DNA of 64,000 nt from Dethiobacter alkaliphilus (GTDB taxonomy: Bacteria > Bacillota > Dethiobacteria > DTU022 > UBA8154): positions 62,001 to 126,000 of the forward strand of contig JAENYV010000011.1 in NCBI GenBank assembly GCA_016841605.1, read 5' to 3'. The notes beneath the pieces were generated by a model, which saw nothing but the letters and a program-made list of their open reading frames with translations, did not search any database and had not been told where the DNA came from. Below, piece by piece: positions 52,659 through 55,196 of the stretch. The position numbers and the translations under genes are program-made. How positions within the stretch are numbered: position 1 is the first letter of the stretch; every line of letters starts with the position of its first letter.

Positions 52659-52687
52659 TTGACGCTATCAGGGGCATAAGATATAAT
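52659..52687 (+). promoter_or_regulatory. sigma-A promoter of sigH
   Basis: TTGACG 52659-52664, 17-bp spacer, TATAAT 52682-52687; 38 bp before the ATG. Confidence 0.85.
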
Positions 52688-52725
52688 AGCAAAGAAGAGA
52701 GATCTCCAATATAGTAACGGAGGCG

Positions 52726-53415
52726 ATGTTTGTGGGCTTAACGGCGCAGGGTTTGAGGGAGGAAGACAGTGTATGCACCGAACTGGATTTTCTAAAAGTA
52801 GAAGAATACGAAGAACGAACAGATGAAGAAGTTGCCGAAGAAGCCAAAGACGGAAACGACATCGCCCTGGAGTATTTGATTAATAAATACAGGAATTTTG
52901 TCAAAGCCAAAGCACGTTCTTACTTCCTTATCGGCGCCGATCGGGAGGATATTATTCAAGAAGGTATGATCGGTCTATACAAGGCTATTCGGGATTTCAG
53001 GGGTGACAAGCTCTCTTCGTTTCGGGCTTTTGCCGAGCTTTGTATTACACGGCAGATTATTACGGCGATTAAAACGGCAACAAGGCAGAAGCATATTCCA
53101 CTTAATTCCTATGTTTCCTTGAATAAACCCATTTACGATGAGGATTCCGATCGCACCTTACTGGACATCCTTTCCGGGACCAAAGTAACGGATCCGGAAG
53201 AGCTAATGATTAACCGGGAAGAGTATTTTGATATTGAGTTTAAAATGGGAGAAATTCTCAGCGACCTGGAATGGCGCGTCTTAATGCTTTACCTGGAGGG
53301 TAAGTCTTATCAGGAAATTTCCATTGAATTGCGGAGGCATGTTAAGTCTATTGATAATGCCCTGCAGAGAGTAAAGCGTAAGCTTGAGCGTTACCTGGAA
53401 ATCAGGCGGGTGTAG
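52726..53415 (+). CDS. sigH: RNA polymerase sporulation sigma factor SigH
   Basis: 229 residues; ATG 52726 follows GGAGG. Region 2 (ALEYLINKYRNFVKAKARSYF, ADREDIIQEGMIGLYKAIRDF) and region 4 (EWRVLMLYLEGKSYQEISIELRRHVKSIDNALQRVKRKL) are clear. It directs early sporulation and stationary-phase genes. Its final codons and stop lie inside tRNA-Gly. Confidence 0.97.
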   Translation: MFVGLTAQGLREEDSVCTELDFLKVEEYEERTDEEVAEEAKDGNDIALEYLINKYRNFVKAKARSYFLIGADREDIIQEGMIGLYKAIRDFRGDKLSSFRAFAELCITRQIITAIKTATRQKHIPLNSYVSLNKPIYDEDSDRTLLDILSGTKVTDPEELMINREEYFDIEFKMGEILSDLEWRVLMLYLEGKSYQEISIELRRHVKSIDNALQRVKRKLERYLEIRRV

Positions 53416-53479
53416 CTCAATGGCAGAGCCCTGGCTTCCCAAGCCAGTCGCGTGGGTTCGATTCCCATCACCCGCTCCA
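53406..53479 (+). tRNA. tRNA-Gly (anticodon CCC), CCA encoded
   Basis: Acceptor GCGGGTG pairs with CACCCGC, followed by T and an encoded CCA (53477-53479). The D-arm is GCTC/GAGC; the anticodon stem CTGGC/GCCAG encloses TTCCCAA with anticodon CCC. The T-arm is GTGGGTTCGATTCCCAT. Its first 10 nt overlap the end of sigH, whose TAG stop is tRNA positions 8-10. Confidence 0.97.
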
Positions 53480-53485
53480 AAAAAA

Positions 53486-53520
53486 GAAAAACCCCTCCCC
53501 TGCAGGAGGGGTTTTTCTTT
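53486..53520 (+). terminator. Rho-independent terminator after tRNA-Gly
   Basis: GAAAAACCCCTCC pairs with GGAGGGGTTTTTC around CCTGCA, then a T-run. Confidence 0.95.
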
Positions 53521-53573
53521 TTTTGGATGATCACATTTTTCGCAAAAATTTGGAAATGAAGGAGATGGGTTAC

Positions 53574-55196
53574 TTGCGTAACTTTGTTCAACAGCCAAAG
53601 CTGCCTCCTGTGGAAAAGAAAATGACATGCCGGGAATTGCTACACGAGAGGTGTTCCCATTACGGTGAAAAGACTTTCGTTATTGATCCCGCTGCCGGGC
53701 GAAGTTATACCTATAGCAAATTTTTAGAAAAGGTCAACAGGGTAAGCAATATGCTTTGGACACTGGGCATTCGCAAGGGAGACAAGGTTACTGTTTTTAT
53801 GTCCAATTCTCCGCAATACCTGTGGTCTTATTTCGGGATAATTCAGTTGGGTGCGGTGATAATCCCCCTAAATATTCACTTAAAAACGGAGGAGGTCGGG
53901 TACATCCTCCGCAATTCAGACAGCGTAGCTCTTTTTGCTTCAGGAGATTGTCTGGAACAGGCGCAGCAGGTCCTGTCCGCCGAGCAGTTGGAGCTTTCCC
54001 TGCTGGCCTGGAATTTTCCGAACGATTTTCCTCCGAAGATTGACACAGCCCGGCTATTTGATGTCCCAACTTGCCTTGCACAGGAAAAAGGGGAACTTCG
54101 GCCGGAAATAGCAGGCCTTTCCCTGGAGCCCGATGATGTGGCCCAGATCATGTACACTTCCGGGACGACCGGCAGGCCTAAAGGGGCCATGCTTACCCAC
54201 CATAACATGATTATTGATGCTCACTGGATAACGAACTGGAACCGTCTTGAAGAAAAGGACCGGGCCATGTGCGTCATGCCTCTCTTCCATATTAACGGAC
54301 AGATTGTTACGGTTATGACACCGCTCTACCATGGGGGGAGTCTGGTATTGCCCGGGAAATTTAGCGTAACGAGGTTTTTTGAACATATTACTGCTTACAA
54401 CGTAACCTATACCGGAACCGTGGCGACGATGTTATCGATGTTGCTGAACAAAAAAGCTTCGTGGGATAAGCAAAAGGAGAGCAAGTTGAAAATTGTTTTT
54501 TGCGGTTCTGCTCCTGTTCCGGAAAAAGTTCAGGTTGAATTTGAAAAAACCTTCCAGGTACCTGTTATCGAAGGATATGGAATGACGGAGACGACATGCC
54601 GTTCAACATTCAATCCTCTCCCGCCCGCCGGGGAGGCGTTGTTGGGACAGAGCGACGGGTACAGGAAAATCGGTTCTGTCGGGCTGCCCCTGGGAAATGA
54701 AATGAGAGTCGTGGACGAACAGGATAAACCTCTGGGGCCAAACGAGCGGGGAGAAATTGTCATTCGCGGTGAAAATCTTATGAAAGGTTACTACAAAAAC
54801 CCCGAGGCCACTGAGCGGGCCTTTGCCGGTGGATGGTTCCACAGCGGAGACATAGGCTTTTTTGATGAAGACGGATACTTCCATATTGTTGATCGCAAAA
54901 CCGATATGATTATCAGGGGCGGTGAAAATATTTATCCCAGGGAGATCGAAGAGGTTCTTTACCGTCATAAGGCGGTGAAAGATGCGGCCTGTATCGGTGT
55001 CCCTGACGATCTATACGGTGAAGAGGTAATGGCTTTTGTTGTAATCAAGGATGATGAACATTCTTCGGAAGAAGAGCTGCTCCTCTTTTGCCGGCAACAT
55101 CTCGCTGCTTTCAAATGTCCCAAAAAGATACGGATCCTGGCTGAAATACCGAAAAGTTCTTCCGGGAAATTGCTGCGCAGAATGCTCAAAGCTTAA
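53574..55196 (+). CDS. Long-chain acyl-CoA synthetase/AMP-dependent ligase
   Basis: About 540 residues from TTG 53574 (AAGGAG 9 nt upstream); in-frame ATGs at 53556 and 53565 are alternatives. ANL-family motifs: YTSGTTGRPKGAMLTH (P-loop), GYGMTET, WFHSGDIGFFDEDGY, RKTDMIIRGGENIYPREIE and the catalytic Lys in SSGKLLRRML. It activates a carboxylic acid with ATP and CoA. Chain length not readable. Stands alone. Confidence 0.93.
   Translation: MRNFVQQPKLPPVEKKMTCRELLHERCSHYGEKTFVIDPAAGRSYTYSKFLEKVNRVSNMLWTLGIRKGDKVTVFMSNSPQYLWSYFGIIQLGAVIIPLNIHLKTEEVGYILRNSDSVALFASGDCLEQAQQVLSAEQLELSLLAWNFPNDFPPKIDTARLFDVPTCLAQEKGELRPEIAGLSLEPDDVAQIMYTSGTTGRPKGAMLTHHNMIIDAHWITNWNRLEEKDRAMCVMPLFHINGQIVTVMTPLYHGGSLVLPGKFSVTRFFEHITAYNVTYTGTVATMLSMLLNKKASWDKQKESKLKIVFCGSAPVPEKVQVEFEKTFQVPVIEGYGMTETTCRSTFNPLPPAGEALLGQSDGYRKIGSVGLPLGNEMRVVDEQDKPLGPNERGEIVIRGENLMKGYYKNPEATERAFAGGWFHSGDIGFFDEDGYFHIVDRKTDMIIRGGENIYPREIEEVLYRHKAVKDAACIGVPDDLYGEEVMAFVVIKDDEHSSEEELLLFCRQHLAAFKCPKKIRILAEIPKSSSGKLLRRMLKA

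Follow-up and report, generated by a model that had tools for sequence, protein, structure and literature searches.

A sigH stop codon inside a glycine tRNA gene in one family of Dethiobacteria

A sigma factor gene that ends within a tRNA gene

In a 64,000-nucleotide stretch of Dethiobacter alkaliphilus DNA (assembly GCA_016841605.1, contig JAENYV010000011.1, positions 62,001 to 126,000; hereafter the window), the gene for the RNA polymerase sigma factor SigH (sigH, 52726-53415, forward strand) runs into the gene for a glycine tRNA with a CCC anticodon (tRNA-Gly(CCC), 53406-53479, same strand). A sequence-only reading of the window had placed the stop codon of sigH inside this tRNA, and the sequence itself, the ARAGORN call and the list of open reading frames (ORFs) agree on this point. 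The two genes share the 10 nucleotides 53406-53415 (GCGGGTGTAG), and the junctions of relatives, described below, place the overlap identically. The final codons of sigH are AGG CGG GTG TAG. Read in the SigH frame the boundary falls as ..ATC AG|G CGG GTG TAG, and the shared bases are the third base of the arginine codon AGG, a second arginine codon, a valine codon and the stop. In the tRNA the same bases are nucleotides 1-10, and the sigH stop is U8-A9-G10. The 5' end of the tRNA thus lies within the ORF and the stop lies within the tRNA, and the RNase P site would be expected between 53405 and 53406.

Both partners look like intact genes. The protein belongs with SigH (spore_sigH), scoring above the curated cut-offs of two models: 402 bits for NCBIfam NF006148 (cut-off 208) and 369 bits for TIGR02859 (cut-off 295). 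The tRNA folds in silico as a cloverleaf on its own, has the CCC anticodon and an encoded CCA, and its anticodon arm occurs nowhere else in the genome, as judged by genome-wide searches for tRNAs and for the arm.

A stop at tRNA nucleotides 8-10 is in itself not odd, TAG being found there in 20 of the 39 other tRNAs of the source genome. None of those 39 tRNAs has a sigH-like ORF terminating inside it; among open frames whose end lies at or beyond the first tRNA nucleotide, the longest span 104, 95, 73 and 67 codons, and these are candidate frames only.

Conservation of the overlap within one family

We compared 97 genomes of the class Dethiobacteria, 23 from the family of the window (f1 in our numbering) and 74 others. 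sigH was found in 70 of them at a match threshold of E 1e-40, and all 70 junctions, 21 from the family and 49 from other members of the class, were inspected. The overlap is present in the identical register at 21 of 21 family loci with sigH and at 0 of the 49 others; the conservation in relatives that the sequence-only reading had left to comparison therefore holds within the family and stops at its border. A pattern search gave the corresponding result (21/23 family genomes, 0/74 others in the class), and the two family genomes without the overlap, at 76% and 79% completeness, yielded no match to sigH. Across a sample of the phylum the pattern, which detects only Gly(CCC)-like tRNA starts, occurred in 3 of 398 genomes, all three of the genus of the window. 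Among 80 named loci the overlap was seen in two (L031 and L032), both labelled Syntrophomonadaceae bacterium (isolates CSSed). In a sigH tree built without the overlap codons, the 21 overlap loci fall on one branch (support 100/97), and a single origin is therefore sufficient.

SigH ends in RYL-x-(I/V)-R-R-V in 21 of 21 family members; most relatives in the class have R-x-x at the equivalent place, ending two residues past that arginine, with a last residue that varies freely, and by this comparison the length of SigH is retained despite the overlap. In an alignment of 20 of the 21 family copies of tRNA-Gly(CCC), 68 of 74 columns are invariant and one further column is at least 90% conserved. 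In 21 of the 23 family genomes the exact anticodon arm is found a single time, always at sigH.

Coding sequence/tRNA overlaps are a frequent clash point of automatic annotators, and one might on that account suspect a wrong ORF call, an assembly error or a dead tRNA. Yet errors of sequencing or assembly are ruled out by the agreement of 21 of 21 separate assemblies on the overlap, SigH matches its family up to the final residues, and the tRNA is nearly invariant with a cloverleaf fold. We consider an artefact of any of these kinds extremely improbable.

Every family genome that is at least 85% complete has a sigH match, unlike several genomes of the class family f3 (G035, G053, G038 and G068, 90-96% complete), in which no match was found at E 1e-40. 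The missing f3 genes could reflect assembly gaps.

Loss of the spacer and of the tRNA promoter

The relatives outside the family show a different arrangement. In all 49 class relatives with sigH, the gene has its own stop and no overlap. A tRNA follows 50-375 nucleotides downstream in 45 of them (the first being Gly(CCC) in 40 and Thr(TGT) in 5), and each of these 45 spaced tRNAs is preceded, at 13-36 nucleotides, by a TTGACA/T-17-TATAAT promoter that matches 11-12 of 12 consensus positions. In the other 4 of the 49, no tRNA was found downstream of sigH within the stretch examined. The usual order in the class (L021-L030, L111-L149) is sigH, a sigma-A promoter and the tRNAs Gly(CCC)-Met-Thr-Met; in the class family f8 the tRNAs run Thr(TGT)-Tyr-Gly(CCC)-Met-Thr-Met, and other Clostridia often have Thr, Tyr, Met and Thr tRNAs downstream of sigH.

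In the family of the window, the spacer, the separate sigH stop and the tRNA promoter are all gone, and the strong sigH promoter is retained. Because the tRNA starts within the coding sequence of sigH, there is no space for a tRNA promoter of the relatives' type. At two family loci (L004 and L013) the former Met-Thr-Met tRNAs still lie downstream and have their own promoter, TTGACA-17-TAAAAT.

The sequence-only reading had also asked for a test for a separate tRNA promoter. None is detectable in the family by a consensus scan, and the promoter tool reported no promoter-like site inside the sigH of the window. The case for absence is the stronger because 45 of 45 spaced relatives have such a promoter and the family has lost it. 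A promoter hidden inside the coding region of sigH would nevertheless leave the two transcripts largely separate, and the overlap would then have little effect on sigH mRNA. Weak TATAAT-like words do occur in the 3' part of sigH, the best of them matching 7-9 of 12 positions, and a GATAAT at Asp-Asn codons lies about 47 nucleotides before the tRNA of the window. Against this, the GATAAT varies among family members (Asp is GAT in 9 and GAC in 12; Asn is AAT in 13 and AAC in 8), and the best promoter-like scores in the last 300 nucleotides of sigH (family mean 8.28, n=21) are near those of relatives (mean 7.98, n=49), whose real tRNA promoter lies elsewhere. The sites in the 3' part of sigH differ in position among loci and none is fixed, and we rejected a conserved promoter inside sigH for want of any site kept across the family. 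We judge a hidden promoter of this sort to be quite unlikely.

A proposed shared transcript and its expected fate

Upstream of sigH is a sigma-A-type promoter, TTGACG-17-TATAAT (52659-52687, forward strand; 11 of 12 positions), which would drive a joint transcript of sigH and the tRNA. A sigH promoter of similar type, again 11 of 12, was found at 20 of the 21 family loci, the remaining locus having too little upstream DNA for the scan, and at 49 of 49 class relatives. We therefore rejected the idea that the sigH promoter became stronger once it had the tRNA to transcribe as well. Directly after the tRNA, a hairpin and T run form an intrinsic terminator (53484-53519, forward strand; terminator scan and folding), and the same scan gave a comparable hairpin after the tRNA at 18 of 21 family loci.

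The explanation that we favour, and regard as likely, is that an ancestral deletion fused the two genes, that the tRNA is obtained from the sigH transcript through RNase P, and that the resulting competition is for the most part tolerated rather than selected. We infer the deletion, the co-transcription, the RNase P cut and the nonstop fate of the cut message from what was observed, namely the overlap, its conservation, the promoter loss, the single-copy tRNA, the terminator and a gene for transfer-messenger RNA (tmRNA). In the ancestor of the family, one deletion would have taken the spacer, the sigH stop and the tRNA promoter; it is a matter of speculation that it used short similarity between its two ends. 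The 5' end of the tRNA would have supplied the new in-frame stop, with the length of SigH unchanged, and from then on the tRNA would have been the 3' part of one RNA reaching from the sigH promoter to the terminator.

On each such RNA the two products would be mutually exclusive: either a finished tRNA or a sigH message with a stop. From the anatomy of the genes, RNase P cleavage before nucleotide 1 would give a sigH RNA without a stop, ending in ..AUC AG, for which clearance by tmRNA and RNases would be expected. The cut 3' end is AG at 20 of 21 family loci and CG at one. Since an added A gives AGA (or CGA), polyadenylation cannot restore the stop. With its footprint, a ribosome positioned on the UAG would cover the 5' half of the tRNA, and translation and processing should therefore hinder each other; a ribosome terminating there would cover the acceptor and D regions and delay folding and cleavage of the tRNA. 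Early rounds of translation would then yield SigH, and later processing would yield the tRNA.

The loss of the tRNA promoter need not have been costly. The other glycine tRNAs of the source genome have UCC and GCC anticodons. Because tRNA-Gly(UCC) can probably also read GGG, tRNA-Gly(CCC) may be dispensable, and the loss of its promoter would for that reason have been survivable.

Three points weigh against this explanation. First, because the promoter search was a consensus scan only, sigH may contain a promoter that is weak or not of the sigma-A type. Second, the tmRNA gene was found in the source genome (193.7 bits), but only 15 of the 23 family genomes gave a score above the Rfam cut-off, a low count that probably stems from incomplete drafts. 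Third, Mohanty and Kushner reportedly found in 2008 that tRNA-proximal terminators inhibit RNase P in Escherichia coli (secG-leuU); by analogy, RNase P may be slow at this terminator-adjacent tRNA and cleavage possibly rare. An RNase P delayed by the terminator would let the intact sigH message last longer.

Two side observations belong here. In the in silico fold, the stem of the terminator (53476-53527) reaches into the 3' UCCA of the tRNA, and 3' processing of the tRNA may compete with the terminator hairpin. Three family genomes have a second tmRNA-like gene that passes the Rfam cut-off (G010:C51:512-870, G003:C135:1463-1889 and G008:C100:1033-1359); these may lie on mobile elements or on contaminant contigs.

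Regulation or tolerance

The sequence-only reading had gone further and suggested that the overlap serves as post-transcriptional control of SigH. Under such selected control, RNase P cleavage would be a timer that limits the SigH made per transcript, and tmRNA would tag SigH from cut RNA for degradation; SigH output before sporulation would change with any shift in ribosome load, RNase P or the folding of the tRNA. We think it unlikely that the overlap was selected for this role. In its favour, the overlap is without exception although family members share a median sigH nucleotide identity of only 0.78 (210 pairs), no insertion restoring a separate stop between sigH and the tRNA was found in the 21 family lineages, the cleaved end AG+A cannot form a stop, and a tmRNA gene is present. 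An equivalent model has also been proposed for selB/selC (PMC8124441).

The tests of the junction itself do not point that way. Synonymous codon identity before the overlap is 0.44-0.51 per block, against 0.49 for the whole of sigH, and reaches 0.97 in the family only at the three codons that the tRNA fixes. The folded RNA of the window does have, in silico, a hairpin between sigH codons and the 5' strand of the tRNA; across the family, however, the acceptor pairing that reflects such hiding varies from 0.03 to 1.0, on which ground we rejected a conserved anti-tRNA hairpin. When sigH ends from the family and from relatives were joined to the same tRNAs there was no clear difference (p=0.095), in a comparison that covered 42 of the 49 relatives, 7 having been dropped because the ERYL motif was not found. 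The sigH promoter, moreover, is alike in genomes without the overlap. Mean acceptor pairing was 0.67 for the real sequences, against 0.85 for synonymous shuffles of family-pooled codons (21 loci), so that in these folding models the real codons appear to hide the acceptor stem more than shuffled ones do, a weak hint toward an element at the junction; in relatives, tRNAs within their own spacer also had acceptor pairing below 1 (0.72, 41 loci). By the synonymous-site and folding tests, then, we found no regulatory RNA element at the family junctions beyond the needs of the protein and the tRNA.

Control by the overlap is therefore unsupported so far, with no extra synonymous conservation, no conserved structure and an unchanged type of promoter. 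Persistence alone is no proof of use, because the overlap can be undone only by an insertion that carries a stop, and passive lock-in after the deletion accounts for the same data. We favour tolerated co-dependence because neither an RNA element nor a promoter change beyond the needs of protein and tRNA was seen. The strictest form of control, with RNase P as the obligatory off-switch of SigH (maturation of the tRNA destroying the stop, SigH being made only beforehand and the rest being tagged through tmRNA), is likewise improbable in our view. Were it true, the level of SigH, the supply of a GGG-reading tRNA and the tRNA-processing capacity of the cell would be coupled, although these products share no pathway.

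If the shared-transcript explanation is right, the family would offer a natural case of a promoterless bacterial tRNA that lives on the transcript of a protein gene which it must break, and its cells would tolerate, or use, a lasting conflict in which translation and tRNA maturation compete for the same RNA. It would be a clean test case for competition among ribosomes, RNase P and trans-translation. A deletion that kills a promoter would have been fixable because this tRNA happens to have an in-frame stop at nucleotides 8-10.

Other features of sigH and its surroundings

A ribosome-binding site, GGAGG, was read from the sequence at 52719-52723 (forward strand). It lies only 2 nucleotides from the ATG at 52726 but 8 from an in-frame GTG at 52732, and the GTG is therefore probably the SigH start rather than the ATG. 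Downstream of the tRNA is an acyl-CoA ligase gene (53523-55196). In Bacillus, sigH is usually followed by rpmG-secE-nusG, an order from which the window differs.

Spo0A scored above its model cut-off in 17 of the 23 family genomes, from which most members seem able to sporulate, and loss of sporulation was rejected as an explanation of the overlap. Five family genomes (G003, G004, G007, G011 and G020; 69-94% complete) have the overlapping sigH and no Spo0A above the cut-off. Their sigH may serve other roles, or its retention may reflect the reliance of the tRNA on the sigH promoter.

Comparison with known systems

An mRNA that ends in a tRNA is familiar from E. coli secG-leuU, in which the tRNA is followed by a terminator and released by RNase P. 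The sigH locus would resemble it in having an mRNA-terminal tRNA, and it too has a terminator. In secG-leuU, however, the stop precedes the tRNA, as in an ordinary mRNA-tRNA operon, whereas the sigH stop lies within it by virtue of the 10-nucleotide overlap. The level of LacI is said to be controlled via SsrA tagging (Abo, 2000), and the trimming of a regulator by trans-translation would be expected likewise for SigH from a cut mRNA, the cause of stop loss being different.

In mitochondria, excision of a tRNA sets the 3' end of the mRNA, and an annotated TAG may overlap the next tRNA by 2 nucleotides (PMC4624183). Excision of tRNA-Gly(CCC) would similarly define the 3' end of sigH mRNA. Poly(A) can finish a mitochondrial stop (PMC4624183), but here the overlap is 10 nucleotides, ..AG plus A makes AGA, and no UAA can arise from ..AUC AG, so that the released message would be neither complete nor completed by polyadenylation.

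We found no description of a sigH-tRNA overlap in the titles and abstracts returned by searches of the open-licence PMC literature. The closest likeness is selB-selC, for which Mukai (PMC8124441) describes overlaps in Alphaproteobacteria, Gammaproteobacteria and Nitrospirae: selC lies inside selB in Alphaproteobacteria, Gammaproteobacteria have partial overlaps whose stop falls within the tRNA, and the selB stop of Dyella/Luteibacter is at tRNA nucleotides 46-48. There, tRNA processing was proposed, as a prediction from sequence, to yield a nonstop selB mRNA with the two products as alternatives. The sigH overlap shares with these the stop within the tRNA, the idea of a nonstop message with alternative products, likewise drawn from sequence, and conservation across species (21/21 family genomes with sigH). 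The nonstop-mRNA idea is itself already published for selB/selC (PMC8124441). The differences are that the genes here are unrelated, one encoding a sigma factor and the other a glycine tRNA, and share no pathway; that the stop is at nucleotides 8-10 and relatives reveal the lost spacer and promoter; and that the selB/selC overlap has been lost in several lineages, whereas the sigH overlap is without exception in its family. What is new is thus the gene pair, the position of the stop at nucleotides 8-10, the unbroken conservation throughout the family and the evidence, from direct comparison with relatives, that the promoter was lost.
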